In this document: positions 14,524-41,437 of the stretch, piece by piece
Numbering within the stretch: the stretch's first letter is position 1
How the letters are laid out: every line of letters begins with the position of its first letter
Source: Arthrobacter globiformis
GTDB lineage: Bacteria; Actinomycetota; Actinomycetes; Actinomycetales; Micrococcaceae
Reading direction: 5' to 3'
Assembly: GCF_003261175.1 (NCBI RefSeq)
Contig: NZ_QLNP01000099.1
Span: forward strand, 62,001 to 126,000
DNA length: 64,000 nucleotides
Position numbers and translations under genes: made by a program
Notes under the pieces: generated by a model
Database searches by the model: none
What the model was told of the DNA's origin: nothing
What the model saw: only the letters and a program-made list of their open reading frames with translations

Positions 14524-14537
14524 CCCGCTTCGGCGGG
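14524..14537 (+). other. UUCG-capped RNA hairpin in the ruvB-yajC gap
   Basis: CCCGC-TTCG-GCGGG forms a 5-bp GC stem with a stable UUCG tetraloop. GC-rich inverted sequence follows to about 14571. No U-tract is present, so it may be a processing or stability element rather than a terminator. The rest of the 176-base gap shows nothing recognisable. Confidence 0.4.
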
Positions 14538-14631
14538 CCGCCCGCGCCGGTTTCCCGTGTCCGGGCGGGCAGCCCGGTGCAAAGCGGACGTTGCTGTCAA
14601 CCAGCTACGCAAGTACAGAACGGAACTTCAT

Positions 14632-15084: not shown

Positions 15085-15124
15085 TCCGCCGCTTCCGGGC
15101 AGCACAGCTGTCTACGGCTGCGGA

Positions 15125-15157
15125 GCCGCCGGGTGCGAGACGGCTCGCCCCGGCGGC
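15125..15157 (+). other. GC-rich hairpin between yajC and secD
   Basis: A 9-bp outer stem (15125-15133 with 15149-15157) continues, after one bulged T, into a 5-bp inner stem (GCGAG/CTCGC) with an ACGG loop. No U-tract follows, so it could lower read-through into secD or protect the mRNA. Confidence 0.4.
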
Positions 15158-15184
15158 CATCCGCAATTAATAGAAAGATAGGCA

Positions 15185-16942: not shown

Positions 16943-17958
16943 TGTCCAGTTTCGCGAAATTCGGCAACGAGCTCTACACGGGCAAGCGTTCCTATGACTT
17001 TGTCGGGTCCAAGAAGATCTGGTTCATCGTGGCCGCCGTGGCGGTCGCGCTGTCCATCCTCATCCCGGTGGTCAAGGGCGGCTTCAACCTGGGCATCGAG
17101 TTCCGCGGCGGTTCCGAGTTCACGGTATCCAACGTCAAGACCACCGAGGCGTCCTTGGGCGAGAAGGCCGTCCACGACGTCGTTCCCGGCAGTGTGCCGC
17201 GCGTCGCCAACGTTGCCGGAACCACCATGCGGATCCAGACGGACAAGCTCTCCGACGACGAGACCCTCAAGATCAAGGAGGGCCTCACCAAGGCCTACGG
17301 CGTGACTGACAACGAGGTGACGTCCACCTTCGTCGGCCCCACCTGGGGCGCCGACGTCACCAAACAGGCCCTGATTGGCCTGGTGGTCTTCGTTGCCCTC
17401 GCGACGGTCCTGATGGCCCTCTACTTCCGGACCTGGAAGATGTCCCTCTCGGCGATCGCGGGCATGGTCGTCACGATGTTCATTACGGCCGGTGTGTACG
17501 CCCTCAGCGACTTCGAGGTCACGCCGTCGGCGATCATCGGGTTCCTGACGGTGCTCAGCTATTCGCTCTATGACACCGTGGTGGTGTTCGACAAGATCCG
17601 TGAAAACACGGCCGACATTGACTCTTCCACTCGCCGGACCTTCGGCGAGGAGGTCAACCTGGCCGTCAACCAGACCCTGGTCCGCTCCATCAACACCATG
17701 ATGGTTGCCATCCTTCCGGTCGGGGCGATCCTGTTCATCGGGGCCGGCCTGCTGGGCGCCGGAACCCTGCGCGATCTTTCACTGGCTCTGTTCGTCGGCA
17801 TCCTGATCGGCACCGCCGCGACGATCTTCATCGCCGCGCCGATGTACGCCTGGCTGCGCCAAGGCGAGGCGCCGCTGGTCAAGCAGGCCCAGCGCGTCAA
17901 GCAGCGCCGCGCGGACGCCGCAGCCAAGGCTGCAGCCGCCGAGCCTGCTAAAGCCTAG
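16942..17958 (+). CDS. secF: Protein translocase subunit SecF
   Basis: A 338-residue partner of SecD with an N-terminal helix (about 28-48), the GIEFRGGSEF motif, and five C-terminal helices including VLSYSLYDTVVVFDKIRENT. The start overlaps the secD stop by one base (TAATG). The C-terminus is Lys/Ala-rich and cytoplasmic. Confidence 0.96.
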   Translation: MSSFAKFGNELYTGKRSYDFVGSKKIWFIVAAVAVALSILIPVVKGGFNLGIEFRGGSEFTVSNVKTTEASLGEKAVHDVVPGSVPRVANVAGTTMRIQTDKLSDDETLKIKEGLTKAYGVTDNEVTSTFVGPTWGADVTKQALIGLVVFVALATVLMALYFRTWKMSLSAIAGMVVTMFITAGVYALSDFEVTPSAIIGFLTVLSYSLYDTVVVFDKIRENTADIDSSTRRTFGEEVNLAVNQTLVRSINTMMVAILPVGAILFIGAGLLGAGTLRDLSLALFVGILIGTAATIFIAAPMYAWLRQGEAPLVKQAQRVKQRRADAAAKAAAAEPAKA

Positions 17959-17976
17959 TCCCCGTACCTGCCCTTA

Positions 17977-18013
17977 GGCCGGATGCCGTCCCCGTGACGG
18001 CATCCGGCCTTTG
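17977..18013 (+). terminator. Terminator after secF
   Basis: A perfect 14-bp stem (17977-17990 with 17996-18009), a CCCGT loop, then a short TTTG tract. It closes the yajC-secDF unit. Confidence 0.75.
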
Positions 18014-18014
18014 C

Positions 18015-18059
18015 GTTAAGCGCTTGTGCGCCTCCGGTTAAGCGCCTGTGTGCCTTCCG
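18015..18059 (+). repeat. Imperfect tandem repeat of about 22 bp between secF and rel
   Basis: Two adjacent copies, 18015-18036 and 18037-18059, both begin GTTAAGCGC and end TCCG. They differ at two bases plus one insertion. No function is evident. Confidence 0.55.
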
Positions 18060-18180
18060 CCGGGCCGTCCGCGTGCTCCGCTGCGTACGGGCCTGGGCCG
18101 TTGGTGACGGACGCGGTTATCGGTCGGGCCCGGAGCGGGAATACACTGGGATAATTAAACGGGTCGTGAGGGGTACTTCA

Positions 18181-20574
18181 TTGGAAGAGGGTTCGACGTC
18201 GGCGCCAGCGGCTGCCGGAGGCAACGGTCAGGGCCAGGGACAGCAGACTGGTCTGGTGGCTGCCGGGCGCCCGGCGCCGGCCGTGCCCGTGGACAACTCT
18301 GGCGTCCGGCCCACATTCCCGGGCCGGCGTGAGCGCACGAGGTCCCGCCTGGCACGGCTTACGGGCCGGAGCACGGCGACTTACTCACCCATCCTGGAGC
18401 CGCTGCTGCGGACCGTTAGGGCGAACAACCCCAAGGAAGACTTCGACCTCATTCAGCGGGCGTTCGTGGTGGCGGAGCAAAGCCACCGCGGGCAGAAACG
18501 CAAGAGCGGTGACCCCTACATCACCCATCCCGTTGCCGTCGCGACGATCCTCGCCGAGCTGGGGCTGAGCGGTACCACCCTGGCGGCTGCGCTGCTGCAC
18601 GACACCGTCGAGGACACCCCCTACACCCTTGAGGATCTCCGGGCCGACTTCGGTCCCGAAGTCGCCATGCTGGTTGACGGCGTCACCAAGCTGGACAAGG
18701 TCAGCTTCGGCGAGGCAGCCCAGTCCGAGACCGTCCGCAAGATGGTCGTGGCCATGGCCAAGGACATCCGCGTCCTGATGATCAAACTTGCGGACAGGCT
18801 GCACAACGCCCGCACCTGGCGGTTCGTTTCCGCCGAGTCCTCGGCGCGCAAAGCCCGGGAAACCCTGGAAATCTTTGCGCCGCTGGCTCACCGGCTCGGC
18901 ATGAACACGATCAAGTGGGAGCTTGAGGACCTGTCCTTCGCGGCGCTGTATCCCAAGGTGTACGAGGAAATCGTCCGCATGGTGGGCGACCGAACGCCGG
19001 AGCGCGAAAAGAGCCTCAGCGTGATCCGGAACCAGATCGCCGACGATCTGCGCACCGCCAGGATCAAGGCCACGATCACCGGCCGGCCCAAGCACTATTA
19101 CTCGATCTACCAGAAGATGATCGTCCGGGACAAGGACTTCGACGACATCAACGACCTCATGGGTGTCCGGGTCCTGGTGGACTCGGTGCGAGACTGTTAC
19201 GCCGCCCTGGGCACCCTGCATTCGCGCTGGAACCCGCTGCCTGGCCGGTTCAAGGACTATATCGCGATGCCGAAGTTCAACATGTACCAGTCCCTCCACA
19301 CCACGGTAATCGGCCCTGGTGGCAAGCCGGTTGAAATCCAGATCCGGACGCACGAGATGCACCGCCGCGCCGAGTACGGCGTCGCAGCGCACTGGAAGTA
19401 CAAGGACCAGCCAAACCGGACTGCCACCGGACCCGGCAGCCCCCGAGACGGCGACATGGGCTGGCTGCGATCCCTCGTGGACTGGCAGCAGGAAACCTCC
19501 GACCCCGGCGAATTCCTCGACTCGCTGCGGTTCGAGATCAACGCCCGCGAAGTTTTCGTCTTCACGCCCAAGGGTGAGGTCATGGCGCTGCCTGCCGGGT
19601 CCACGCCGGTGGACTTCGCCTATGCCGTGCACACCGAGGTGGGCCACCGCACCATCGGAGCCCGGGTCAACGGCAAGCTCGTGCCGCTCAACAGCGAGCT
19701 GAACCATGGCGACTGGGTGGAGATCTTCACCTCGAAGGCCGAGGGCGCCGGCCCCAGCCAGGACTGGCAGCACTTCGTCAAGAGCGCCCGGGCGCGCAAC
19801 AAGATCCGGCAGTGGTTCAGCAAGGAACGCCGCGAAGAGGCCATTGACCGCGGCAAGGAGCTGCTGACCCGGGCCATGCGGAAGCAGAACCTGCCGCTGC
19901 AGCGCCTCATGACCCACGACGCCCTGGCTGCCGTGGCGGAGGAATTCAAGTACGTCGACATCTCCGGGCTCTACGCTGGCGTGGGCGACGGCCACACCTC
20001 GGCGCAGCACGTCATGGAGAAGCTCGTCGAGATGCTCGGCGGGAACGAAACACCCGATGACGATCTCACCGAAGTCAGCATCCCCACCCAGGTCAGCAAA
20101 GCCCGGTTCTCGGATTCGGGCGTGGTGGTCCGCGGCGTGGGCGACGTCTGGGTGAAACTGGCCCGCTGCTGCACCCCCGTGCCGCCGGACCCGATCCTGG
20201 GTTTCGTCACGCGCGGCTCGGGCGTATCGGTGCACCGCACCGACTGCACCAACGTTGCGGGCCTCAAGGACCAGCCTGACCGGATCGTGGACGTGGACTG
20301 GGCTCCGACGCAGTCAAGCGTCTTCCTGGTGGAGATCCAGGTGGAGGCGCTGGACCGGAAGTCGCTCCTCTCCGACGTCACGCGCATACTTTCGGAAAAC
20401 CACGTGAACATCCTGGCGGCGAGTGTCCACACGTCCACGGACCGCGTGGCCATCTCAAAGTTTGCCTTCGAGATGGGCGACCCCAAGTACCTCAGCCACG
20501 TGCTCAGTGCCGTGCGGAGGATCGACGGGGTGTTCGACGTCTACCGGACCACGGGGAACCACCGGAGGAGCTAA
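18181..20574 (+). CDS. relA: Bifunctional (p)ppGpp synthetase/hydrolase Rel
   Basis: A 797-residue stringent-response enzyme. After an unstructured Ala/Gly/Gln-rich N-terminus it has an intact HD hydrolase domain (LLHDTVEDT, His140-Asp141), the RelA/SpoT synthetase domain ([21 protein letters not shown]), a TGS domain ([22 protein letters not shown]), the conserved Cys pair [10 protein letters not shown] (Cys663-664) and a C-terminal ACT domain. Both catalytic sites look intact, so it should make and degrade (p)ppGpp. TTG at 18181 is chosen because GAGGGG ends 7 bases upstream. Its last 120 bases are overlapped by a convergent minus-strand gene. Confidence 0.95.
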
Positions 20575-29714: not shown

Positions 29715-31130
29715 TTAGCGCACATCGACGGACGGCTGCCGCGACGGTGTTTGCTGCCCTGCTGCTTCGGCCTGCCGCCGTCGTGCGGTGCCTTCCAGGT
29801 ATGGTCCTCCGAGCTCCGCAATGGGCGTGGCGGCAGTCTCCCTTGACCAGAACGCGCATCCTGCCGCAATGAGCATGCAGACGGTGCCGAAGACGGCCAC
29901 CGGCACCCAGCCCCAGACTCCGGGAGCAAGCAGCATCCCGGCGATCATCGGGCCAAAGCCGGCGAGGACCAGGCCGAACTGGTTCCCCAGCGCCATTCCG
30001 GAGTACCGGACGGGCGCCGCGAACTGTTCGGCGAAAAATGCCGGCCAGATGCCGTTGAAGCCCGAGTACAGCACCGTCATGTTCACGAAGGCTGCAAGGA
30101 AGACCAGCACGATGTTTCCGGAGGACAGCGCCAGGAAGTAGAGGAAGATCGTGACGGAGCAGCCGATCGCGGCCGTCAGCAGGAGAGGGCGGCGGCCGAC
30201 CCGGTCGGACAGCCTGGCCGCCAGCGGCATGGCGAACATGGACAGGCCGATGGCCACTGCGTTCACGGTCAGGATGGCCGCCCGGTCAAATCCCGCGCCC
30301 GAGGTGGCGTAGGCGAGTCCAAAGACCGTGAAGATGGTCTGCATCACGGACATAATGGACATTCCCGCCACCCGTAACACGTCTGGAGCTTGGAAGCGGA
30401 GCACTTCCTTGACGGGCATGGGGGCCACCTGGCGGCGTTCCTGGGCCTCCTCGAAGACCGGTGTTTCGTCCAGATGCGTGCGGACCCAGTAAGCGATGGC
30501 CAGCACCACGATGGAGAGCCAGAACGGGATGCGCCAGCCCCAGCTCATCATGGCCTCCCGGGGCAGTGCCGTAACTGGGATGAAGACCAGGGTGGCCAGC
30601 ACCATGCCGGACGCGTAACCCGTCATCACGAAGCTGGTGAAGAACCCGCGCCTGCCTTCGGGCGAGTGTTCCAGCGTCAGGGTGGAGGCGCCCGCCGATT
30701 CCGCGCCGGCGGAGAAGCCCTGGGCCAGCCGGCCCGCCACCAGAAGGATGGGGGCCCAGACGCCGAGCTGTTCGTAGGTGGGCAGGAATCCGATGCCGAG
30801 GGACGCCAGGCCCATGATGCCGAGCGTCAGCAGCAGGATCTTCTTGCGGCCCAGTTTGTCGCCGAAATGTCCCATCACCAGTCCGCCAACAGGCCTGGCC
30901 ACGTACGCGACGCCGAAGGTGGCGAAGGCGCCGATCAGACCGATGGCCGGGTCCGCGGAGGGGAAGAACAGGTGGGGGAACACAAGTGCGGCGGCGGTGC
31001 CGTAGATGAAGAAGTCGTAGTACTCCAGCGTGCTGCCGAGGAAGGAGGCCAGGGCTGCCTTTCGGGGCGTCTTCCGCGGGGGCGGCTGGGAAGCCTGCAG
31101 CGGAACCTGCGGTGATGGGGTAGTGGTCAC
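29715..31130 (-). CDS. MHS-family (metabolite:H+ symporter) MFS transporter
   Basis: A 471-residue, roughly 12-helix permease. The N-terminal signature FLGSTLEYYDFFIYGTAAALVFPHLFFP and the loop GHFGDKLGRKKILLLTL are typical of the MHS family, which includes the shikimate, alpha-ketoglutarate, citrate and proline/betaine carriers. It is the distal gene of the SDR-FAD-Dabb unit, so it probably imports the substrate; shikimate, a hydroxylated cyclohexene carboxylate, is a chemically close known substrate of the family. GTG 31130 is chosen for the GGAG 7 bases upstream. Confidence 0.88.
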   Translation of the reverse strand: MTTTPSPQVPLQASQPPPRKTPRKAALASFLGSTLEYYDFFIYGTAAALVFPHLFFPSADPAIGLIGAFATFGVAYVARPVGGLVMGHFGDKLGRKKILLLTLGIMGLASLGIGFLPTYEQLGVWAPILLVAGRLAQGFSAGAESAGASTLTLEHSPEGRRGFFTSFVMTGYASGMVLATLVFIPVTALPREAMMSWGWRIPFWLSIVVLAIAYWVRTHLDETPVFEEAQERRQVAPMPVKEVLRFQAPDVLRVAGMSIMSVMQTIFTVFGLAYATSGAGFDRAAILTVNAVAIGLSMFAMPLAARLSDRVGRRPLLLTAAIGCSVTIFLYFLALSSGNIVLVFLAAFVNMTVLYSGFNGIWPAFFAEQFAAPVRYSGMALGNQFGLVLAGFGPMIAGMLLAPGVWGWVPVAVFGTVCMLIAAGCAFWSRETAATPIAELGGPYLEGTARRRQAEAAGQQTPSRQPSVDVR

Positions 31131-31140
31131 GGGAATCTCC

Positions 31141-31470
31141 TTAAGACTGCGTTGTCTCAATGGGTGCCGGCGTAGGGTCCGGAAGGTGGAAGTCCACCGC
31201 GAGGATCTGCCGGCTGTTGGGGAACGAGTACGCCTTTAGCGGCTCGTGGAGGGGGTGCGTGTTGTAGACAGCGATGTCCTCGACGCTTTCAAAGTCGGCC
31301 ACGATGGCGTAGTCGAAGGAGCGTTCGGTGTTGAGGACGTCAGGGCCGTGGCTGAGGCTGAGCATGCCGGGGATCTTTCCGGCCATGGTGTTGAGCCCGT
31401 CAATCCAGGCCTGCCGGTCGGCCGGCGGGAAGCCGGGCTTGAACTGGAAGAGCACGGTGTGGCGGATCAT
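31141..31470 (-). CDS. Dabb (stress-responsive A/B barrel) family protein
   Basis: A 109-residue dimeric alpha/beta-barrel-type protein, recognised by the N-terminal MIRHTVLFQFKPG, the central FDYAIVADFESVEDIAVYNTHPLHE and a short C-terminal strand. The Dabb family includes small proteins of unknown role and some cyclases. It starts one base after the stop of the upstream flavoprotein gene, so the two are translationally coupled and probably act on the same substrate. Role within the pathway (for example isomerisation of a dienone intermediate) is speculation. Confidence 0.85.
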   Translation of the reverse strand: MIRHTVLFQFKPGFPPADRQAWIDGLNTMAGKIPGMLSLSHGPDVLNTERSFDYAIVADFESVEDIAVYNTHPLHEPLKAYSFPNSRQILAVDFHLPDPTPAPIETTQS

Positions 31471-31471
31471 T

Positions 31472-33178
31472 TCAGACGCCCGCCTCGACAAGCCCGGCCA
31501 CCGGTGACAGGGCTGCTTGGTCCTCTGGGGACCGGTAATCCGGGGACTGGCCGGCAAGGGTGCGGCCAGCGAGGTAGCCCATGGTCATGATGGGTCCGAG
31601 GGTGGCGCCGGCGCCGGGGTAGCCTGCCGCGTAGGCGTTTTCCGTGGTGTTGCCGGCGGCGAACAGGCCCGGGATGGGGCTGTTGTCGACGTCGAGCACA
31701 CGGGCTGACCCGTCGGTAGCCACGCCGCCGTTGGTGCCAAAGGCGCCGTTCACCACCTCCAGCGCGTAGAAGGGCCCGGATTCGAGCGGACCCAGGGACG
31801 GGTTCGGCCACGGGCAGTCGGCGTCGCCCCAGTATTTGTCGTAGGCGCTTTCGCCGCGGCCGAAGTCGGGGTCCTCGCCCCGCGCCGCGAACTCGTTGAA
31901 CCGGACCACTGTGGCTTCCAGGTTCTCCGCGGGAATGCTGATCTTCGCGGCGAGTTCAGCCAGCGTGGGCGCCTCGATCAGGTAACCCGGCGTCGGCTGG
32001 CCTGCGCGGTGGGCAAGGATGCCGTAGCGCTCCAGGTAGCCGTGGTCCACGATCACGTGCGCCGGGGTGTTCAGCGTGCGGTTCGCGGCGGAGTCCCAGG
32101 ACTGCAGGCTGCGGGCGAGGTCATTGTAGTTCTGCGACTCGTTGGCGAAGCGGCGCCCGTGGCGGTTCACCATGATGGAGCCCGGGCCCTGCCGCTCGAA
32201 CCGCAGCAGGGTGCCAACCGGCTGGCCGTCGCGGGTGTCGCCGGTGACGGACATCGGCGCCCACCAGGCCTCGCGCGTGCCGCGGGTCTGGCCGCCGATG
32301 CGCTGCGACATCCGCAGCCCGTCACCGGTGTTCGAGGGTGGCGAGCACATGGTGTGGAGCCGGGACGCGAGCATCGAGTCGGCCAGGGCCTTGTCCCATT
32401 CGAAGCCGCCTGTCGCGAGCACCACGCCCTCGCGGGCATGGAACGCCTCACCGGTTTCCAGTTCGACGCCGGTCACCCGGCCGCCGTCGGTGAGCGGACC
32501 ATCGGTGAGCAGGCGGTGCCCGCGGGCCCCGGTGACGAGTGTGGCTCCGTCGCGGACCAGGCTGGCGAGCAGCATGGAAACGAGCGCCTGCCCCTTGGCA
32601 ACGAGGCCCTTCTCCTGGCGGCTGGCCAAGTCCTCCCACGGAAACTTGGTGAAGGCGCCCCACTCTTCGTATTCCTGCATGGTGAACGGGGCGCGGCCGT
32701 CACTGCGCACGTGCACCCGGAGGGCGCCCAGCGCTTCGGTGCTGTTGAACAGCTCCGGCTCAATCGTGCGGCCGCCCGCCACTGCACCCGGGAGATCCTG
32801 CCGGTAGTCGGGGAAGTTGTCGAGGAAGATGAAGCGGACGCCGCACTCCTCCTCGACGAAGCGCAGCATCTGGTCGCCGTAGTTCAGGGCGGCGTCCAGC
32901 AGATCCTCACGGCCCCTGCCGCGGGCGACGGCGCGCACGTACGCCGCTGCTGCTGCCTTGGAATCGGTGATCCCGGCCTTCCGTGCGTGATGGTTGTCCG
33001 CCACCCAGAGCATGCCGCCAGACACGGCCGAGGTCCCGCCCAGCAGGTCACTCTTTTCGAGGACGACGACGGACTTGCCGGCATGGGCGGCGGTGGCCGC
33101 CGCGGTGAGTGCTCCCGCACCGGAACCGACGACGACGACGTCGTAAGTGTCCGCGGGGGTGCCGTTGACGAATTTCAT
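31472..33178 (-). CDS. FAD-dependent ketone desaturase, 3-ketosteroid delta-1-dehydrogenase-like (copy 1)
   Basis: A 568-residue flavoprotein of the fumarate reductase/KstD superfamily. The N-terminal dinucleotide fold reads VVVVGSGAGALTAA with the FAD-ribose acid in VVLEKSDLLGGTSAVSGG; a second FAD segment is VVLATGGFEWD. Near the C-terminus YPGAGATLGP (Tyr about 520) keeps the Y-x-x-x-G pair that in KstD polarises the substrate keto oxygen. It therefore probably introduces a C=C bond next to a ketone. In context with the SDR and P450 I infer a 4-oxocyclohexanecarboxylate-type desaturase; a steroid or terpenoid substrate is the alternative. Confidence 0.85.
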   Translation of the reverse strand: MKFVNGTPADTYDVVVVGSGAGALTAAATAAHAGKSVVVLEKSDLLGGTSAVSGGMLWVADNHHARKAGITDSKAAAAAYVRAVARGRGREDLLDAALNYGDQMLRFVEEECGVRFIFLDNFPDYRQDLPGAVAGGRTIEPELFNSTEALGALRVHVRSDGRAPFTMQEYEEWGAFTKFPWEDLASRQEKGLVAKGQALVSMLLASLVRDGATLVTGARGHRLLTDGPLTDGGRVTGVELETGEAFHAREGVVLATGGFEWDKALADSMLASRLHTMCSPPSNTGDGLRMSQRIGGQTRGTREAWWAPMSVTGDTRDGQPVGTLLRFERQGPGSIMVNRHGRRFANESQNYNDLARSLQSWDSAANRTLNTPAHVIVDHGYLERYGILAHRAGQPTPGYLIEAPTLAELAAKISIPAENLEATVVRFNEFAARGEDPDFGRGESAYDKYWGDADCPWPNPSLGPLESGPFYALEVVNGAFGTNGGVATDGSARVLDVDNSPIPGLFAAGNTTENAYAAGYPGAGATLGPIMTMGYLAGRTLAGQSPDYRSPEDQAALSPVAGLVEAGV

Positions 33179-33247
33179 GGGGTGTTGCCTTTCAAAAGGA
33201 AAATGATGGGTGCTGCCGCAGGTGGGAGCTGCTGGGGTGGTCCGGCG

Positions 33248-34009
33248 TCAGACGGCTGTGTAGCCGCCGTCGATGACCAGCTCTGAACCGGTGGTGAAGC
33301 GCGACTCGTCAGAGGCCAGGTAGAGCACGCCGTACGCGATCTCGTCCGGTTCGCCCTGGCGGGGCAGCGGGTTGGAGCCCACCAGTTGCTTGTAGTAGGC
33401 CTCGGCACCGATGTCCGACTGCTCCGCGGAGCGGCGGCTCATCCTGGTGTTCATGGATCCGGGGTGGATGGAGTTGACCCGGATGCCGTAACCGCCGTAG
33501 GCCGCCGCGTCCGACTTGCTCAGAAGCCGCACAGCGCCCTTGGTGGCGTGGTAGAGCGGGACATTCCGGCCGCCGGTGAGGCCGTGGATGGAGGAAAAAT
33601 TGACGATGCTGCCGGTGCCTTTTTCGATCATGCCGGGGACCACGTGCTTGGTCATCAGCCAGACGCCCTTGACGTTGACGCTGAAAATCGTGTCGAAGTC
33701 GGCCGTCGAGGCCGTGTGCGAGGCTCCTGCCGGGCCGATGATGCCAGCGGCGTTGACCAGGATGTCCGGTGTGCCCAGTTCGTCCCGGACCCGGCGAATG
33801 GCGTCGGCTACGCTGGCCTCGCTGGTGACATCGACGTCGTACTCACTGATGTTTTGGTGGGCAGCGGCGGCCGGGATGCCGGCAACGTCCAGGCTGGCAA
33901 CCTTCGCGCCGTGCTCGGCAAGGAGGGCGGCGGTGGCACTGCCCAGGTCTCCGCGGCCTCCGGTGACAATGGCGGTCTTTCCGGCCACGCGGTTCTGGAT
34001 GGGATTCAT
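33248..34009 (-). CDS. Short-chain dehydrogenase/reductase, probable alicyclic alcohol dehydrogenase
   Basis: A 253-residue classical SDR. The cofactor loop reads TGGRGDLG (Asp in place of the central Gly), the NAG motif is VNAAG, and the active site has Ser in NFSSIHG and YHATK. Asp in VASLDVAG after beta-2 favours NAD over NADP. The C-terminus has the usual SELVIDGGYTAV. It is the first gene of the leftward unit. In the proposed pathway it would oxidise the P450-made hydroxyl group to the ketone used by the two flavoproteins. The ATG start follows AGGAGC. Confidence 0.9.
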   Translation of the reverse strand: MNPIQNRVAGKTAIVTGGRGDLGSATAALLAEHGAKVASLDVAGIPAAAAHQNISEYDVDVTSEASVADAIRRVRDELGTPDILVNAAGIIGPAGASHTASTADFDTIFSVNVKGVWLMTKHVVPGMIEKGTGSIVNFSSIHGLTGGRNVPLYHATKGAVRLLSKSDAAAYGGYGIRVNSIHPGSMNTRMSRRSAEQSDIGAEAYYKQLVGSNPLPRQGEPDEIAYGVLYLASDESRFTTGSELVIDGGYTAV

Positions 34010-34089
34010 GTGTTGCTCCTCGTGATCCTGCAGCCTCATCGCTGCTTCCCAGCCAGCGTGGCAGGGGACCTGTGAGGCGAACCACACAA

Positions 34090-34106
34090 TTGCCGATGAA
34101 CGGCAA
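34090..34106. promoter_or_regulatory. Candidate IclR-type operator before the SDR unit
   Basis: TTGCCG-ATGAA-CGGCAA is a perfect 6-bp inverted repeat with a 5-base centre, the general shape of IclR-family sites. Its core CCGATGAACGG recurs exactly upstream of the P450 gene. It lies 81 bases before the SDR start. Confidence 0.6.
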
Positions 34107-34128
34107 AACCGGATTTCAGTGGCCTTGC

Positions 34129-34914
34129 TCAGTGACTCTGGCGAAGAGTGCCCTTCAGCTCGCCCCGCCAGCCCAGCGCCCGGGAGATCCCGCGCGCCGC
34201 GGCCATCAGCACGGGCACCCGGGCCGGGGCGTTCTCCTCGTTGCGCGGCACCACGACGCTGAGCGCGGCGCGGACGGTGTTGTCGGAGCCAAACACCGGC
34301 ACGGCGATGCCGCTGGACTCGGGAACGATCACTCCCGGCATGGCAGCGAAGCCACGCTGCCGGATCTCGGCCAGGTGGCGCCGGAGCGCGGCCGGCTCGG
34401 TCAGGGTGGTCTCGGTGAACTTCGTCAGCGGCCGGGCCAGGAAGGCGTCCTGGTACGCGGCGGGGGAGTGTGCCAGCAGTACCAGTCCCGAGGATGTGGC
34501 GTGGACCGGCAGCCTGCCGGCGATCTTGGTGATGTCCACGATCGTTTTGTCCGAGCCGAGCCGCTCGATGTACAGGACCTCGTCCGAATCGAGGATGCCC
34601 AGTGTGGTGGAGTGCTGCACCACGGCCTGGATATCCTCCATGAATGGCAGCGCGGCTTCCCGCAGGCCCAGCATCTTGGAACCGCGGGAGGCCAGTTCCC
34701 ACATCCGCGTGCCGACGTGGATGTCCCCGTCGGGGTCGCGTTCCAGCAGACGCTCGAGCAGCAGGTCGTTGACCAGTCGGTAGGTGGTGGTCACCGGCAG
34801 GCCGGTGCGTCGCCCCAGCTCGGCGACGCTCATGGCAGGGTGCCGGTCATCGAAGGCGCTCACGATTTTCACGAAGCGGCCGATGATCGACTCGCCGGAT
34901 GCGGAGTTGGCCAC
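34129..34914 (-). CDS. IclR-family transcriptional regulator (copy 1)
   Basis: A 261-residue regulator. The N-terminal winged helix-turn-helix (about 8-60, MSVAELGRRTGLPVTTTYRLVNDLLLERLLERD) is followed by the IclR effector domain with LPVHATSSGLVLLAH and HLAEIRQRGFAAMPGVIVPESSGIAVPV. Such proteins usually bind a small organic acid, often aromatic, and control catabolic genes next to them. It is a close paralogue of the regulator at 36829-37581. GTG 34914 is supported by AGGAGGA 6 bases upstream. It lies between the two metabolic units and is divergent from the second flavoprotein. Confidence 0.92.
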   Translation of the reverse strand: MANSASGESIIGRFVKIVSAFDDRHPAMSVAELGRRTGLPVTTTYRLVNDLLLERLLERDPDGDIHVGTRMWELASRGSKMLGLREAALPFMEDIQAVVQHSTTLGILDSDEVLYIERLGSDKTIVDITKIAGRLPVHATSSGLVLLAHSPAAYQDAFLARPLTKFTETTLTEPAALRRHLAEIRQRGFAAMPGVIVPESSGIAVPVFGSDNTVRAALSVVVPRNEENAPARVPVLMAAARGISRALGWRGELKGTLRQSH

Positions 34915-34929
34915 TGTTCCTCCTGTCGA

Positions 34930-34946
34930 TTCCCGCTCAATGGTAA
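34930..34946. promoter_or_regulatory. Degenerate IclR-type operator in the regulator-flavoprotein divergent region
   Basis: TTCCCGCTCAATGGTAA matches 12 of 17 positions of the reverse complement of the perfect site at 34090-34106. It lies in the 133-base divergent region, where a regulator could control itself and the rightward unit. Weaker than the other two sites. Confidence 0.35.
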
Positions 34947-35047
34947 TCCTCCTCCCGGGCGGCCGTGCTCCCGGCTCTACTGGGGGTTTGTCAGCAAACG
35001 CCTGCCGCCGCAAAGGAGTGGCCCGCAGGCAGAACGGAGCAGGAACC

Positions 35048-36808
35048 ATGACAGAAACTTTGGCAGAAACCGCAAAGACGGCGGTCTGTGACGTCCTCGT
35101 CATCGGATCGGGTGTGGCCGGGATGGCCGCAGCATTGAAGGCCGCATCGCAGGGACTGAGCGTGATCGTCGCGGAAAAGGAGCAGCACTTCGGCGGAACC
35201 ACCGCCATTTCCGCGGGCTGGGCATGGGTCCCCGGCAACAAGCACGGCGTGGCGCAGGGCGATACCCGCGGGGACGCCGAGAGCTACCTGAAGAACCTGG
35301 CGCCGGAGACGTACAACGAGGCAGGAGTTCGGAACTTCCTGGACACCGTGCCTGAAGCGATCTCCTTCTTCGAAAACGAAACCGAGGTGAAGTTCACCTA
35401 CCCGGAGAAGGCCCCGGACTACCAGATGGACCTGCCTGGCGCGAGGCTGTCCGGCCGGGCCATCCTGCCGCAGGACGTGGATGCACGGGTGCTCGGGGAC
35501 AAGCGGCTCCTGATGCAGCCGTACATGAGTTCCTACACCGTCTTCGGCTACATGCCGCAGGTGGGGCCGGACATCAACGAGTTCTTCCACGTGAACCAGT
35601 CGCTTAAGTCCTTCATCTACGTGGCCAGGAAGCTGCTGCGCACCTGGGCCGATGCCGCCCGCTACAAGCGTCCGGTCCTGCGCTCCAACGGCAACGCCCT
35701 CATGACCCGTATGGTCAAAAGCGCCGACGACCTGGGCATCCGGCTGTGGAAATGCTCACCGGCGCTGTCCCTCACCAGGGACGACGCCGGGACCGTCACC
35801 GGTGCGGTCATCGGGGGAGAGCACGCCATCACCGTCACTGCGCGGGCGGGCGTCATCCTCGCCGCGGGCGGATTCTCCGGAAACCGGGAACTACGGCAGC
35901 GGTATTTCCCTCACGACGCCGGCGGCGACGACCACTTCACCCCCACCGTGGGCCACGGCGGCGACGCCGCCACACTGGCGATCGCAGCCGGAGGCTACAT
36001 CGACGATTCCGTGTTCAGCGTTGGCTCCTGGGCCCCGGTGACCGTGTTCAAATATCTCAGCGGTGAACAGCGGCTCTTTCCGCATCTGCGGGCCATCGGC
36101 CTGCCCGGACTGATCGCCGTCGACCGCCACGGCAGGCGCTTCGGTAACGAGGCCCTGAGCTACCACGACTTCGGCTGGGCCATGATTGAGCACAACAAGG
36201 ACGAGGTCGGAACCTTCGGCTACGTGATCGGCGACGCGAAAACGATGCACAAATACGGCATCGGCTATGCCAAGCCCTGGCCGATGCCCCGCGGCTACTT
36301 CTACAGGACCGGCTACCTGGTCAAAGGGAACACCCTTGCTGAGCTCGCCGGAAAGCTCGGCATCGATGCAGCGGGCCTGGAGGCCACCGTCGCCGGATTC
36401 AACCCGGCGGCTGAACGCGGCGAGGACCCGGCGTTCGGCCGCGGTTCCACCCAGTACAACCACTTCCGGGGCGATCTCGAGCACAAGCCGAACCCGAACC
36501 TCGCGCCGGTGGGCAAGGGCCCGTACTACGCGGCGAAGATCCAAATGGGCGATCTGGGCACCTTCGCCGGCCTCGGCGTCAACGAGCACTCCGAGGTGGT
36601 CACGGCGGAGGGCTCGGTGGTGCCCGGCCTGCTGGCCGTGGGTGCGGCCGCGGTGAGCGTCTTCGGCGGCGGTTACCCCGGCTATGGCTCCCACATCGGG
36701 CCGGCCCTGGTGTTTGGCTACCGCGCGGGCCGGGACATCGCCAGGCTTGCCGCTAAGAGGAACGCGGACCAGACAGGGGCGCGTCCGGCCAACGTGGCGG
36801 GCAACTAG
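35048..36808 (+). CDS. FAD-dependent ketone desaturase, 3-ketosteroid delta-1-dehydrogenase-like (copy 2)
   Basis: A 586-residue flavoprotein homologous to the protein at 31472-33178. The FAD fold reads VLVIGSGVAGMAAAL with EKEQHFGGTTAISAGWAWVPGN, then VILAAGGFSGN. The C-terminal YPGYGSHIGP (Tyr about 543) keeps the Y-x-x-x-G keto-binding pair. Two such enzymes in one cluster suit two successive desaturations of one ring. ATG 35048 follows CGGAGCAGGAACC. The stop is 20 bases before a second IclR gene, so both are probably co-transcribed. Confidence 0.85.
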   Translation: MTETLAETAKTAVCDVLVIGSGVAGMAAALKAASQGLSVIVAEKEQHFGGTTAISAGWAWVPGNKHGVAQGDTRGDAESYLKNLAPETYNEAGVRNFLDTVPEAISFFENETEVKFTYPEKAPDYQMDLPGARLSGRAILPQDVDARVLGDKRLLMQPYMSSYTVFGYMPQVGPDINEFFHVNQSLKSFIYVARKLLRTWADAARYKRPVLRSNGNALMTRMVKSADDLGIRLWKCSPALSLTRDDAGTVTGAVIGGEHAITVTARAGVILAAGGFSGNRELRQRYFPHDAGGDDHFTPTVGHGGDAATLAIAAGGYIDDSVFSVGSWAPVTVFKYLSGEQRLFPHLRAIGLPGLIAVDRHGRRFGNEALSYHDFGWAMIEHNKDEVGTFGYVIGDAKTMHKYGIGYAKPWPMPRGYFYRTGYLVKGNTLAELAGKLGIDAAGLEATVAGFNPAAERGEDPAFGRGSTQYNHFRGDLEHKPNPNLAPVGKGPYYAAKIQMGDLGTFAGLGVNEHSEVVTAEGSVVPGLLAVGAAAVSVFGGGYPGYGSHIGPALVFGYRAGRDIARLAAKRNADQTGARPANVAGN

Positions 36809-36828
36809 GCGCCGGGCCGGAGACAGCC

Positions 36829-37581
36829 ATGGCCAACTCGACATCGGGGGAATCGGTGATCAGCCGCGTGGTGCGGCTCATGAGCGCCTTCGACCGGGAC
36901 CTGCCGGCCATGACGCTCTCCGGCCTTGCCCGCCGCGCCGGCCTCCCGCTGACCACCGCGCACCGGCTCGTGGATGACCTGGTCCTCCACGGTCTGATTG
37001 AGCGGCTACCGGACGGGAACCTCTGCTCCGGGATGCGCATGTGGGAGCTCGCTGCCCGGGGCTCGCGCGCGCTGAACCTGCGCGAGCTGGCGCTGCCCTT
37101 CATGGAGGATGTCCAGGCCGCCGTCCACCAGCACACCACCCTGGCCGTGCTGGACCACGGCACTGTGCTGTATGTGGAGCGGCTCTCCTCTCCGCACTCC
37201 AGCCTTGACGCCGCCCATATTGCCCAGCGGATGCCCATCCACGCAGCCTCGTCGGGCCTGGTGCTGCTGGCGTTCTCGCCGCCCGTTGTCCAGGCCGAGG
37301 TGCTGGCGAAGCCCCTGAAGGCGGCGACCCCTGAAACCATCACCGATTCAGCCCTCATCCGTAAGCATCTGGCCGAGATCAGGCAGCGCGGCTACGTGGC
37401 GCTGCCCGGCATCGGAGTCACAGAGTGGACGGGCGTTGCCGTGCCTGTCTTTGGGCCCGGCAACACGATTGCTGCAGCGCTCAACGCCATTGTGCCGCGG
37501 CAGGACGCCGCGGTTCCGTTGATCGTCCCCGCCCTGCTGACCGCAGCCCACGGAATCTCCCGCGCCCTGAAATCCGCTTAG
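36829..37581 (+). CDS. IclR-family transcriptional regulator (copy 2)
   Basis: A 250-residue IclR protein with the same layout as the one at 34129-34914: helix-turn-helix MTLSGLARRAGLPLTTAHRLVDDL, then the effector domain with MPIHAASSGLVLLAFSP and HLAEIRQRGYVALPGIGVTEWTGVAVPV. Of the first 51 residues 31 are identical to copy 1, which points to duplication within the cluster. Differences in the effector domain (IGVTEWTG against VIVPESSG) suggest a different ligand, perhaps the substrate for one and a product for the other. Confidence 0.92.
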   Translation: MANSTSGESVISRVVRLMSAFDRDLPAMTLSGLARRAGLPLTTAHRLVDDLVLHGLIERLPDGNLCSGMRMWELAARGSRALNLRELALPFMEDVQAAVHQHTTLAVLDHGTVLYVERLSSPHSSLDAAHIAQRMPIHAASSGLVLLAFSPPVVQAEVLAKPLKAATPETITDSALIRKHLAEIRQRGYVALPGIGVTEWTGVAVPVFGPGNTIAAALNAIVPRQDAAVPLIVPALLTAAHGISRALKSA

Positions 37582-37636
37582 TCCCCAGGCCGGACCCGCC
37601 GAATCCGCCTGGCCCGGCGAGCCGGCAAACTTTCGC

Positions 37637-37651
37637 AACCGATGAACGGAA
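37637..37651. promoter_or_regulatory. Candidate IclR-type operator before the P450 unit
   Basis: AACCGATGAACGGAA contains the 11-base core CCGATGAACGG found also in the perfect palindrome at 34093-34103. It lies 91 bases before the P450 start. The reverse complement begins TTCCG-N5-CGG, the form common for actinobacterial IclR sites. Confidence 0.55.
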
Positions 37652-37742
37652 GACCTGTGGGGGCGGCCGCAGCACATCCCGCAAGGTGGACTGAGAGGCG
37701 GATCACATCCGAATTCGCCGCAGCCCACCGGAAAGAAGGACG

Positions 37743-39002
37743 ATGATGTCTGCTCTACAGACGGAAATCCTGCCCCCGTACTCGCATGAACTCGACTGGC
37801 CCGAGGGTATGGCGCCCTTCAAGGTGGTGGACGACGGGACCCAGGGCGATCCTTACCGGCACTATCAGTGGATGCGAGAGAACGCCCCGGTGCTCCGTGC
37901 CCATTCACCCGTATCGGATGTCTGGTTCATCTCCCGGTACGACGACGTACGCCGGGCCATGCGGGCACCGAAAGTCTTCTCGTCGCAGGTCGTGGACCCG
38001 GTTCCGCTGACCTTCCTGACGCTGTTCGACGCACCCAACCACACCCGTCTGCGCCAGGTCGTGGCGCAGGCCTTCATTCCCAAGGCCATTGCCCGCTTCG
38101 AGGACCGGGTGCGGGAGAACGCGGATAAGTACTTAGCGCCGATGCTCGCCGCCGGCGGCGGTGACGCCGTGGACGACTACGCCATCCCCCTGAGCATGTC
38201 CACCATCAGCGCCCTGCTCGACGTTCCTGCCGAGGACTTCGAGAAGATGAAGTTCTGGTCGGACGAGACCTTCAGCTACTTCGGCCGGCTGGCCCGCAAC
38301 GCCCAGGGCACAGGCACCGACGAGCAGAGCACCTTCGAGTTCTTCGCCTACCTGAAGGACACGATGGAGCGCCTGTACCGCGAGGAGAGCGACTCCGTCG
38401 GCGGACACATCGCCCGGATGTGGAAGGAAGGCCTGCTCAGCGAGAAGGAGGCCAAGGAACTCTGCGCCTTTGTCTTCGTCGCAGGCCATGACACCACCAC
38501 CATTCTTTTGGCCAACGCATTCCGGATGTTCAGCGAACAGCCGGACCTGCTGGACAGGATCCGACGGAACCCCAACGACGCGAACCTCTTCGTCGAGGAG
38601 TTGGCCCGCTACCGCGGCACCGTCCAGCGTGCCAGCCGGATCACCACAGAGGAGGTGGAGGTTTCCGGTGTGACCATTCCGGCCGGCGCCATCGTGCGCC
38701 TGCTGCCCGCCGCAGCGAACCGGGACAGCAGCAAATATCCCGACGGCGAGCGCTTCGACATCGACCGCGACACCGACGGCCACCTGGGCTTCGGGCACGG
38801 AGTCCACAGCTGCCTCGGTGCGCCCCTCGCCAGGCTTGAGGTCCTGGTGACCGTCAAGCTCCTTGCCGAAAAGCTGACGTCACTCACGCTGGATCCGGAC
38901 AAGCCCATCGAGTATGTGCGCGGCAACAACCTAACAAACTCGGGCCCGGAGCACCTGCACGTGATGCTCGGACAGATCAATGCAGGGCAGACCAATGCAT
39001 AG
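37743..39002 (+). CDS. Cytochrome P450 (bacterial class I)
   Basis: A 419-residue soluble P450. The I-helix oxygen-activation motif is AGHDTT (247-252), the K-helix ExxR is ELAR, and the heme loop is FGHGVHSCLG with the thiolate Cys357. It is followed by genes for its own ferredoxin reductase and [2Fe-2S] ferredoxin, forming a complete three-component hydroxylase. In the proposed pathway it would hydroxylate a cyclohexanecarboxylate-like acid at C4. The substrate cannot be read from the sequence. AAAGAAGGA precedes the ATG; a second in-frame ATG follows at once. Confidence 0.93.
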   Translation: MMSALQTEILPPYSHELDWPEGMAPFKVVDDGTQGDPYRHYQWMRENAPVLRAHSPVSDVWFISRYDDVRRAMRAPKVFSSQVVDPVPLTFLTLFDAPNHTRLRQVVAQAFIPKAIARFEDRVRENADKYLAPMLAAGGGDAVDDYAIPLSMSTISALLDVPAEDFEKMKFWSDETFSYFGRLARNAQGTGTDEQSTFEFFAYLKDTMERLYREESDSVGGHIARMWKEGLLSEKEAKELCAFVFVAGHDTTTILLANAFRMFSEQPDLLDRIRRNPNDANLFVEELARYRGTVQRASRITTEEVEVSGVTIPAGAIVRLLPAAANRDSSKYPDGERFDIDRDTDGHLGFGHGVHSCLGAPLARLEVLVTVKLLAEKLTSLTLDPDKPIEYVRGNNLTNSGPEHLHVMLGQINAGQTNA

Positions 39003-40299
39003 CCCTGAAACCACACGCCACGAAACCGGGAACGGAACCGCAGCGCCGGTGGTCATCGTCGGCGCGGGACACTCCGGCGTCGCTGTCGCCGCGGGGCTCC
39101 GCTCCCGCGGCTGGGAAGGCGGCGTCATGCTGATCGACGCGGAGAACGAAGTGCCCTATGAACGGCCGCCGCTCTCCAAGGAACTCCTGAAGGACGGCGC
39201 CCCCGACGAGTCCGCCGTGCTCCGCAAGGAGAGGTTCTATGCGGACAAGGGCATCGGCCGCCTCGCCGGGATAACCGCGGAATCCATCGACAGGAACAGC
39301 CGGACTGTATTGCTGTCCGACGGGACGGGGCAGGCCTACCACCGGCTGGTCATCGCCACAGGCTCGCGGGCACGGCCCCTCACCTTGCCAGGCGCCGGTC
39401 TTCCCGGCGTCAGATGCTTGCGGACCCGGGATGACGCCCTCGAACTCAAGCGGCTGCTGGTCGCGGGGGCCCGCGTGGCCATCATCGGCGCCGGGTACAT
39501 CGGGCTGGAGGTGGCCGCAGCGGCGGCGGCGAGGGGCTGTGACGTCACGGTGCTCGAATTCCAGGACCGCGTGATGAGCCGGGTAACGTCAGCCCCCGTC
39601 TCGCGCTATTTCGAGCAGCTGCACGGGCGCCACGGGGTCCGGTTCGTCTTCGGCGCCGCCGTAACGTCGATCGACGGCGGACAACGGGCCGAGCGCGTGA
39701 CCGTCGCCGACGGCACCGTCTTTCCTGCCGACGTCGTCCTCGCCGGGATCGGCGTCCTGCCCAACCAGGAGCTGGCCGCGGACGCCGGCCTGGAGTGCCG
39801 GGACGGCATCCTCGTTGACGGGGATGGCAGGACGTCCGATTCCGCCGTCTATGCCAGCGGGGACGTCACGCGCTTCACCAGTCCCGTCGACGGCGCCAGC
39901 CAGCGGCTCGAGTGCATCCAGAACGCGCAGGCACAGGCAGACCGGGTGGCAGCGCACATCACCGGCCAGGCCGCCGCTGAACCGGAAATCCCCTGGTTCT
40001 GGACCGTCCAGCACGGTGTACGGCTGCAAACCGCGGGCGTCCGCCAGCCGGAGGACGAGGCGATCGTCCGCGGAGAACCCTCCGGCGGCAAATTCTCGGT
40101 GGTCTACCTCCGCGACGGCCGCCTCGCCGCCGTCGACACCATCGCGAACCTGGCCGACTTCCGCACGGCCAAACGGCTGATCGCCCAGGGAGCCCGGATC
40201 GACCCGGTGTTGGCCGCGGACCCCGGCATCCCCCTCGCCGAAGCCACTTCCAGCACACCCAACCACTCCGACGCTGACCTTGCAGCAGCGCGATCCTAA
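38995..40299 (+). CDS. NAD(P)H-dependent ferredoxin reductase (putidaredoxin reductase type)
   Basis: A 434-residue flavoprotein that passes electrons from NAD(P)H to the ferredoxin at 40310. It has the FAD-binding VVIVGAGHSGVAVA, the ERPPLSKELL segment, the NAD-binding VAIIGAGYIGLEVAAAA and the second FAD motif VYASGDV, followed by the reductase C-terminal domain. ATG 38995 overlaps the P450 stop by 8 bases; an in-frame ATG at 38980 would add five residues. Confidence 0.93.
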   Translation: MHSPETTRHETGNGTAAPVVIVGAGHSGVAVAAGLRSRGWEGGVMLIDAENEVPYERPPLSKELLKDGAPDESAVLRKERFYADKGIGRLAGITAESIDRNSRTVLLSDGTGQAYHRLVIATGSRARPLTLPGAGLPGVRCLRTRDDALELKRLLVAGARVAIIGAGYIGLEVAAAAAARGCDVTVLEFQDRVMSRVTSAPVSRYFEQLHGRHGVRFVFGAAVTSIDGGQRAERVTVADGTVFPADVVLAGIGVLPNQELAADAGLECRDGILVDGDGRTSDSAVYASGDVTRFTSPVDGASQRLECIQNAQAQADRVAAHITGQAAAEPEIPWFWTVQHGVRLQTAGVRQPEDEAIVRGEPSGGKFSVVYLRDGRLAAVDTIANLADFRTAKRLIAQGARIDPVLAADPGIPLAEATSSTPNHSDADLAAARS

Positions 40300-40309
40300 G
40301 GAAACCGAC

Positions 40310-40648
40310 ATGAGCAACACCAGCATGAGCAGCAATACACTGACCGTCGTCGACCGCGATGGCGCCACCCACGACCTTGAATGGGAACCGGACCAGAGCA
40401 TGATGGAAGCCCTCCGGGACAACGACCTGCCCGTGCTGGCATCGTGCGGCGGCACCGCCTCCTGCGCCACCTGCCACGTGTTCGTGGAGCAGGAAGTCTT
40501 CGACACCCTGGAAGAACGCAGCGAGGACGAACTCGAGCTCCTCGTGGAGGCCGAGGGGTACCGGGAATGCGGCTCGCGGCTCTCCTGCCAAGTGGCCTTC
40601 AGCCGCGACCTCAACGGTGTCACCGTGACGCTGGCACCAGAGGGGTAG
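40310..40648 (+). CDS. [2Fe-2S] ferredoxin (putidaredoxin/adrenodoxin type)
   Basis: A 112-residue electron carrier. The cluster ligands are Cys46, Cys52, Cys55 and Cys93 (C-x5-C-x2-C, then Cys in RLSCQ), the adrenodoxin-type pattern of P450 partner ferredoxins. The ATG at 40310 follows AAGGA with good spacing, 10 bases after the reductase stop. An upstream in-frame ATG at 40280 lies inside the reductase gene and is not preferred. Confidence 0.94.
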   Translation: MSNTSMSSNTLTVVDRDGATHDLEWEPDQSMMEALRDNDLPVLASCGGTASCATCHVFVEQEVFDTLEERSEDELELLVEAEGYRECGSRLSCQVAFSRDLNGVTVTLAPEG

Positions 40649-40747: not shown

Positions 40748-41437
40748 CTACCAGGGAGGCGGGTCCGTCACCGTTACCCGCACCGCGCAGGCGTCCGCCG
40801 CGGCCTTCTTCAGGACGGCGGCCCGGGGGTCGGGAACATCGAGGTAGGCCAGGCGCGGCAGGCCTGCCCAGGGCTTCAGAGCAGGGTGCGCCAAAACTTC
40901 GTCAGCCAGGCCGCGGTCGCCGCCCGGGAGGATGTACCCGAAGACCTGGCCACCGAAGACCAGCCGCGCCTGCTCCGCCACCGCCTCCACCATGGCGTCC
41001 GCCTGGTTGGCGCGGCGCCGGGCGAACCGCTGCTGCGACTGGCCGCCGGCCGCGGTCCGGGACTGCACATACTTGGAACCGGTCTTGGCGGCGAGGATGA
41101 CCCCTTCACTGGCGACGGCCACTCCGTATCCTCCGCGGCGGACCAGGAGCAGGCCGACCGTGCGCGGCTGGGAAGCCAGGGAAGCCAGCCGTTCCACGAG
41201 GCCGGATCCGCGCCCCGGCCGCCCGTCGTCGGGCCACGGCGCCACCAGCAGCGCGGTGGCGCCGTCCGCGGCGGCCAGCCGTACGCCGTCGTCGTGGTCC
41301 TCATACCCCAGGTCACCGTGGCTGGCGGCGAACCGTTCAACCCAGCCGGCCAACCGCGGGCCGGGGATGAACGCGGTCCTGGTGGACCCCACACGTCCCT
41401 GCGCTGCATGTCCCTGTTCCGGACGGCTGCCTGGCAT
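40748..41437 (-). CDS. acVLRF1-family peptidyl-tRNA hydrolase (actinobacterial Vms1/eRF1-like)
   Basis: A 229-residue protein of the actinobacterial VLRF1 group, related to the eRF1-like domain of eukaryotic Vms1/ANKZF1. The catalytic loop is visible as AAGGQSQQRFARRRANQ, with GGQ at 131-133, preceded by GSKYVQSRT. Family members are thought to release nascent peptides from tRNA on stalled or split ribosomes. It is convergent with the P450 unit and divergent from rarA. Identity rests on the GGQSQQRF motif and overall layout; the ribosomal role here is inferred. Confidence 0.82.
   Translation of the reverse strand: MPGSRPEQGHAAQGRVGSTRTAFIPGPRLAGWVERFAASHGDLGYEDHDDGVRLAAADGATALLVAPWPDDGRPGRGSGLVERLASLASQPRTVGLLLVRRGGYGVAVASEGVILAAKTGSKYVQSRTAAGGQSQQRFARRRANQADAMVEAVAEQARLVFGGQVFGYILPGGDRGLADEVLAHPALKPWAGLPRLAYLDVPDPRAAVLKKAAADACAVRVTVTDPPPW

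Follow-up and report, generated by a model that had tools for sequence, protein, structure and literature searches.

A putative Arthrobacter-type variant of the chc aromatization cluster and its separable core genes

The genes described here lie in a 64 kb stretch of DNA from Arthrobacter globiformis (the window; L numbers denote loci and G numbers genomes, G000 being the window's own genome) and form a candidate relative of the chc cluster for cyclohexanecarboxylate. Gene calls and domain searches place ten contiguous genes at positions 29715–40648, with every gene named in an earlier, sequence-only reading confirmed: a cytochrome P450 with its reductase and ferredoxin, a short-chain dehydrogenase/reductase (SDR), two flavoproteins, an MHS-family carrier, a Dabb-domain protein and two IclR regulators. 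Along the window, the minus-strand arm comprises the carrier, the Dabb protein, flavoprotein 1, the SDR and IclR1, and the plus-strand arm comprises flavoprotein 2, IclR2, the P450, the reductase and the ferredoxin; gene start positions are inferred. The grouping is not a matter of chance, because this gene set is found together again in many loci of the Arthrobacter group. In the described route, cyclohexanecarboxylate is hydroxylated at C4 by a P450, dehydrogenated to the 4-oxo acid and desaturated twice to 4-hydroxybenzoate (PMC9795900).

Flavoprotein 1 (31472–33178, minus strand) scores 1012.3 bits against the NCBI curated model NF053676 for 4-oxocyclohexanecarboxylate 2-dehydrogenase (cut-off 1000), and flavoprotein 2 (35048–36808, plus strand) scores 1012.4 bits against NF053677 for 4-oxocyclohex-2-ene-1-carboxylate 5-dehydrogenase (cut-off 900). 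On the partner's model they reach 328 and 271 bits, far below their own scores. Both proteins fall under all three equivalog cut-offs for 3-ketosteroid Δ1-dehydrogenases (KstD): NF009478 (400 and 388 bits, respectively, cut-off 789), NF005882 (395 and 347 bits, cut-off 788) and NF009479 (298 and 313 bits, cut-off 793). The sequence-only reading had proposed comparing the flavoproteins with both chc and steroid enzymes, and the comparison falls on the chc side. The sequence family and four catalytic residues are shared with KstD (PDB entries 4c3x and 7p18). The latter are given as Tyr119, Tyr318, Tyr487 and Gly491 (PMC5348764); read off alignments, with the 4c3x chain numbering taken as 20 higher, their counterparts are Y125, Y351, Y520 and G524 in flavoprotein 1 (invariant in 58/58 aligned sequences) and Y125, Y372, Y543 and G547 in flavoprotein 2 (invariant in 42/42). 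These residues are a mark of mechanism and not of membership among the steroid KstDs. Given the curated chc scores, the failure on the KstD models and the retained catalytic residues, flavoproteins 1 and 2 are very probably ChcC1 (desaturase I) and ChcC2 (desaturase II), with monocyclic keto acids as substrates by family assignment. The closest relatives of the window ChcC1 are from Arthrobacter, such as A. ipis (93%) and A. globiformis (92%), and ChcC2 is under purifying selection in both pairs tested (w 0.072 and 0.115). More distant ChcC1-like proteins (38–42%) occur in sphingomonads, Mycobacterium, Acidimicrobiaceae and others (L075–L087 and L089–L091), and no Dabb or carrier relative was found next to them. 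Below, IclR1, the SDR, ChcC1, the Dabb protein and the MHS carrier are termed the core, ChcC2 and the P450 block are treated as bolt-ons, and the full state denotes a P450 and ChcC2 in the same genome.

The SDR (33248–34009, minus strand), a proposed 4-hydroxycyclohexanecarboxylate dehydrogenase, passes neither the ChcB1 model (162 bits, cut-off 400) nor the ChcB2 model (147 bits, cut-off 350). The two SDRs of the Sinomonas locus L049, to which it is 37% and 40% identical, are above cut-off (ChcB1 449/400 and ChcB2 410/350). In a 73-row SDR tree, the window SDR lies inside a 40-row clade (support 100/99), apart from ChcB1 and ChcB2. Three rows were flagged as long (L055 and L063 very long, L073 less so), none of them inside this clade, and, according to a program warning, L063 may be falsely joined to the window-containing part. 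The clade has the motif TGG(R/S)GDLG where TGxxxGhG is usual (TGGRGDLG in 34 rows, TGGSGDLG in 4 and TGARGDLG in 1, with 1/40 unmatched by the pattern), and D21, N112, S140, Y153 and K157 are invariant in 40/40 rows, the window SDR having the sequence YHATK. Of 33 genomes searched (the L051 genome was not included), 2, both Sinomonas, had ChcB1 over cut-off and 3 had ChcB2, namely these two and the L073 genome; in 14 other full-type Arthrobacter-group genomes both were below cut-off too. Since the window SDR is neither ChcB1 nor ChcB2, the enzyme of the alcohol-oxidation step is at best an analogue and not an ortholog, and its position suggests that another SDR fills this step in the Arthrobacter-type cluster. 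The earlier claim that each step of the route has a matching gene therefore stands for both desaturases, by curated models, and does not hold for the SDR as a ChcB1 or ChcB2.

The P450 (37743–39002, plus strand; PF00067, 81 bits), a candidate ChcAa and proposed ring 4-hydroxylase, carries the motifs FGHGVHSCLG and AGHDTT; no curated ChcAa model matched it in the curated-model search. It is followed by a FAD-dependent ferredoxin reductase (starting at 38980 or 38995 and ending at 40299, plus strand; Pyr_redox_2 226 bits, Reductase_C 88 bits) and a 2Fe-2S ferredoxin (40310–40648, plus strand; Fer2 41 bits) with cysteines C46, C52, C55, C87 and C93. In three Sinomonas loci, the P450 in the equivalent position shares 74–77% identity with that of the window, and the corresponding values are 58–62% for the reductase and 64–67% for the ferredoxin.

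The carrier (29715–31130, minus strand) is a shikimate-transporter-like member of the MFS, assigned from its resemblance to TIGR00883 and NF007414. The adjoining Dabb-domain protein (31141–31470, minus strand; PF07876 69.4 bits, cut-off 25) has residues H4, Y69, H72 and H75, which are invariant in 57/57 sequences. It shares the Dabb domain with olivetolic acid cyclase, to which the relation is a distant one (E 1.6e-05), and its best solved match is 3bgu, of unknown function. The catalytic residues of the cyclase are given as Tyr72 and His78 (PMC7962319), with which Y69 and H75 align (chain numbering taken as 3 higher). The cyclase-type residues are common to other Dabb proteins also, and therefore do not demonstrate the same reaction; they suggest, short of proof, proton-transfer chemistry. 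The protein is a proposed tautomerase or isomerase; because it accompanies ChcC1 in core-only strains too, it probably acts at or after the ChcC1 step.

The chc cluster of Sinomonas cyclohexanicum ATCC 51369 is said to have been described by Yamamoto and colleagues in 2021, reportedly under the name chcC1XTC2B1B2RAaAbAc. If that name is correct, we take the Dabb protein to be chcX, the carrier chcT and IclR2 chcR. The comparison made here uses loci of other Sinomonas genomes and not the ATCC 51369 sequence. L049, L051 and L072 have the order that this name gives, namely ChcC1, Dabb, MHS, ChcC2, SDR, SDR, IclR2, P450, reductase and ferredoxin, with an extra IclR gene before ChcC1. Sinomonas and the window thus have in common ChcC1 and ChcC2 (by curated models), a three-component P450 system, an MHS carrier, a Dabb protein and IclR regulators in one cluster. 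The window differs in that a single SDR, from a clade of its own, takes the place of the Sinomonas ChcB1 and ChcB2, and in that the genes form two divergent arms instead of running in a single direction. The proposal that the Dabb protein and the twin regulators might be undescribed parts has to be dropped, as the three Sinomonas loci have the Dabb protein, the carrier and a second regulator in the same cluster.

IclR1 (34129–34914, minus strand; IclR_C 108 bits and HTH_IclR; GTG start after GGAGG), the proposed core-module regulator, and IclR2 (36829–37581, plus strand; IclR_C 84 bits), which adjoins the P450 block, are 57% identical over 247 residues. Three operator-like sites, all listed on the minus strand, lie in the gaps around them. 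Palindrome A (34927–34949; GGATTACC-N7-GGGAATCG) is upstream of IclR1, between that gene and ChcC2, palindrome B (34087–34109) is in the IclR1/SDR gap, and site C (37633–37655) is in the IclR2/P450 gap; C has the motif centre and lacks the A/B arms. The motif CCGTTCATCGG occurs exactly at only two places in the 64 kb, within B (34093–34103) and C (37639–37649). Among relatives, it is exact in 31/36 IclR1/SDR gaps (33/36 with at most one mismatch; 0/720 shuffled gaps exact) and in 12/18 IclR2/P450 gaps (15/18; 0/360 shuffled gaps exact), counts that are not independent because the sequences are related. Two of the three IclR1/SDR misses (L043 and L071) have an exact copy inside the presumed IclR1 frame. 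The motif is not enriched in the stretches upstream of IclR1 (2 exact and 3 one-mismatch copies among 55). The arms of site A, with at least 13/16 bases, were found in 22/55 gaps or upstream stretches, a count made without a shuffle control; L047 has a perfect inverted repeat, and among core-only loci the arms occur in L020 only.

Sinomonas P450 gaps have CCGTTCATCGG with one mismatch (L049) or two (L051 and L072), and CCGATCATCGG stands ahead of ChcC1 in L050–L052 and L072 and not in L049. In the core gap of Cryobacterium, L061 and L062 have a copy of the motif with a single mismatch, and L060 and L064 have none within that limit. In the core-only genome G015, the unlinked P450 block (L113) has the motif twice. 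The whole window genome has 12 exact copies, 10 of them beyond the cluster, against 3 for a reversed control. Two of the other genomic copies (L139 and L147) match site B in symmetry (6/9), so that further targets are possible. By these sequence patterns, the two IclR proteins probably recognize a common operator type, which would couple the P450 block to the core.

The desaturases exceed the chc cut-offs and matching genes occur in Sinomonas in another order, and the cluster is therefore read as a variant of a known system: we consider it highly likely to be an Arthrobacter-type chc cluster, predicted to aromatize cyclohexanecarboxylate to 4-hydroxybenzoate. The earlier suggestion that the unit converts a saturated ring acid into an aromatic one finds support in the same desaturase scores and Sinomonas counterparts. 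In the proposed pathway, the MHS carrier would take up cyclohexanecarboxylate, and the P450, receiving electrons through the reductase and ferredoxin, would hydroxylate C4. The SDR would oxidize the alcohol to 4-oxocyclohexanecarboxylate. Acting in turn by the KstD mechanism, ChcC1 and ChcC2 would each take two hydrogens from beside the ketone; the resulting dienone would become 4-hydroxybenzoate, with the Dabb protein probably aiding tautomerization of an enone. Catabolism would continue through two enzymes whose genes are elsewhere in the genome, a PobA-like hydroxylase and protocatechuate 3,4-dioxygenase; the former lies at G000:C31:58089-59246, and the PcaH subunit of the latter, over cut-off, at C31:93058-93714. 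The desaturase identities rest on curated models, and transport, the substrates of the P450 and SDR, the Dabb role and regulation are inferred, as is every functional statement beyond family assignment.

Several observations weigh against this interpretation. ChcC1 clears its cut-off by 12 bits only. No ChcB1 or ChcB2 over cut-off was found elsewhere in the window genome (best scores 285 and 231 bits), and the assignment of step 2, the alcohol oxidation, rests on gene position. The carrier is under every curated cut-off (TIGR00883 371/443; the shikimate transporter ShiA model NF007414 321/538), so its MHS family is assigned by resemblance only. The PobA-like protein scores 417 bits on TIGR02360 (cut-off 539), a model whose cut-off was reached in none of the 20 genomes searched (20/20 below). 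With one mismatch allowed, CCGTTCATCGG exceeds chance only mildly in the window, at 6 sites where 2.2 are expected, and 5/100 shuffles have as many.

Other routes start from the same growth substrate. The chcpca genes of Rhodococcus aetherivorans BCP1 (PMC5906575) and the bad/ali genes (PMC9795900) belong to a β-oxidation-type or benzoyl-CoA-linked route; the window genes, by family assignment, act on the free acid. The window's own genome has a second cluster of similar design (L132, G000:C71:6000-25999, at 11213-18564), with two IclR genes, an MHS carrier (50% to that of the window), a YCII protein, a zinc alcohol dehydrogenase and a KstD-like flavoprotein (37% to ChcC1); sugar-acid genes adjoin it, and it may act on another cyclic hydroxy acid.

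The gene set is not constant among relatives. In 59 loci with ChcC1 of at least 60% identity (L068 and L088 being pieces of one genome), the Dabb protein is present in 56, IclR1 in 56, the MHS carrier in 51, ChcC2 in 41, the window-type SDR in 39 and the P450 in 19. Dabb is missing from three loci: L048 and L088 are cut off by a contig edge, and L069, from a Microbacterium metagenome-assembled genome, is truly without it. Next to ChcC1 in L069 come an SDR from the ChcB1-like clade and then ChcC2, and neither a Dabb nor a carrier gene was found there. When 39 genomes with no ChcC2 or no P450 in the locus were searched, 23 proved to have ChcC2 over cut-off and 16, mostly drafts, did not. The locus has IclR1, the SDR, ChcC1, Dabb and MHS in 15 of these 16, the SDR standing after Dabb in four Cryobacterium, and no carrier was found in the two pieces of the remaining one (G036). 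Five of the 16 were searched with the ChcC2 profile at E≤1e-15: in G005, G030 and G034 it matches nothing but ChcC1 itself, and in G017 and G031 there are, besides ChcC1, weaker matches only. The other 11 have a more distant flavoprotein (334–507 bits on the ChcC2 profile), and a replacement desaturase is therefore possible there. Three of the 16 (G010, G011 and G015) have a ChcAa-like P450 elsewhere, each with its own IclR2, reductase and ferredoxin. In G011 (Paenarthrobacter aurescens TC1, also the source of L038), the P450 match of this unlinked IclR2-P450-reductase-ferredoxin block (L116) contains a stop codon.

In the 58-row ChcC1 tree, 3 changes are required for the core-only state, in Cryobacterium, in a ten-member Arthrobacter/Paenarthrobacter clade and in A. 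silvisoli. The full state requires 11, or 8 if L043, L048 and L066, whose P450 is unlinked, are excluded from the full group; the core-only figure is 3 regardless. The cluster is flanked by hisS-permease-GNAT on one side and VLRF1-MgsA-alaS on the other, and nested states occur at one chromosomal site: the window and its relatives are complete, L024 and L030 are without the P450 block, and L020 (A. silvisoli) is without ChcC2 and the P450 half, as follows from IclR1 standing directly after VLRF1. The VLRF1 release-factor gene (40748-41437) also contains an ARAGORN tRNA-Ala (AGC) call at 41263-41361 (minus strand), probably a false one. Spread on plasmids was considered and rejected, no ChcC1 match at E≤1e-150 being present in the plasmid collection. 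Where compared, the core genes of core-only strains are intact and under purifying selection: w is 0.035-0.132 when L031 is set against L037 and L038, 0.066-0.118 between the window and L020, and 0.056-0.238 between Cryobacterium L060 and L064 (SDR highest, Dabb excluded).

All 16 genomes without ChcC2 over cut-off have a PobA-like protein. In four of the four Cryobacterium core-only loci, pobA, a gene for a PobR-like regulator and pcaH lie in the locus itself, with pcaB in 3/4; the L060 pobA is above the PRK08243 cut-off (541/351) and the L064 pcaH above that of TIGR02422 (353/296). The sole other locus bearing pobA is L045, of full type, where the carrier is absent from its usual place. Since pobA and pcaH adjoin the core in Cryobacterium, the product of the core-only unit is probably 4-hydroxybenzoate or protocatechuate. 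Downstream of the carrier in Cryobacterium lactosi (L061, 14255-19746) are another IclR gene, a different P450 (29%) and two phosphoenolpyruvate-synthase-like genes, possibly another feeder route. Conversion of 4-hydroxycyclohexanecarboxylate to 4-hydroxybenzoate removes six hydrogens, which takes one alcohol oxidation plus two desaturations. With its one SDR and one desaturase, the core-only set covers four and is one desaturase short of the known route; either its substrate starts out with a double bond or an additional hydroxyl group, or both desaturations fall to ChcC1.

On the first of these options, the core would chiefly serve by itself, as a pathway for a ring acid that is one level more oxidized than 4-hydroxycyclohexanecarboxylate. 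Examples would be a hydroxycyclohexene-carboxylate or a dihydroxycyclohexane-carboxylate, for which one alcohol oxidation and one desaturation would be enough to give 4-hydroxybenzoate or protocatechuate. Cyclohexanecarboxylate would be used where ChcC2 and the P450 block are attached. We advance this tentatively, as a serious proposal short of an even chance. It is consistent with the 16 of 39 genomes having ChcC1 without ChcC2 over cut-off, three of them with ChcC1 itself as the only match to the ChcC2 profile at that threshold of E≤1e-15, with the purifying selection on L031, L037 and L038, with the 4-hydroxybenzoate genes beside the core in Cryobacterium and with the 3 changes on the tree; a more oxidized core substrate is further favoured by the selection that maintains ChcC2 elsewhere. 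Against it, no position of the ChcC1 alignment discriminates core-only from other sequences, so that the enzyme itself gives no sign of a different substrate, the data do not name the substrate, and the distant flavoprotein could serve in 11 of the 16 genomes. With the same reserve, the core may be an undescribed stand-alone aromatization pathway, perhaps with a shikimate-like substrate, one desaturase and a Dabb tautomerase, and the known pathway would then consist of this core with ChcC2 and P450 modules, under one operator type and repeatedly lost or unlinked. The literature search gave no paper on core-only chc modules among the matches listed, from which absence from print is not claimed.

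The second option, on which the core-only ChcC1 performs both desaturations, the substrate enters as 4-hydroxy- or 4-oxocyclohexanecarboxylate and ChcC2 merely speeds the last step, is likewise a serious possibility that appears somewhat less likely than not. The absence of a residue pattern specific to core-only ChcC1 mildly favours it; the ChcC1 proteins of L020, L031, L038 and L044 pass the same NF053676 equivalog cut-off, and the adjoining pobA fits here as well. However, the four Cryobacterium ChcC1 proteins are slightly under that cut-off (961-984 bits), and the presence of ChcC2 in 41 of 59 ChcC1 loci and over cut-off in 23 of 39 genomes, together with its conservation under selection, suggests that it is needed. 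That the genes form a cluster for steroid or terpenoid ring degradation with KstD-type enzymes is highly improbable, and this reading was rejected on the curated-model scores: the nearest solved structures to both flavoproteins are 3-ketosteroid dehydrogenases, and among the P450 relatives of solved structure are hydroxylases of macrolides, vitamin D and steroids, but the flavoproteins pass the chc models and fall far below those for KstD, and the core adjoins pobA and pcaH in relatives.

Cyclohexanecarboxylate is a model naphthenic acid, and naphthenic acids are toxic petroleum pollutants. The analysis shows that the genes for cyclohexanecarboxylate aromatization reach beyond Sinomonas into a wide range of actinobacteria, Arthrobacter and Cryobacterium among them, and that they form a modular set. 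It poses the question of how a single KstD-type desaturase next to 4-hydroxybenzoate genes yields an aromatic ring, and from the answer a natural soil substrate of these enzymes could emerge.

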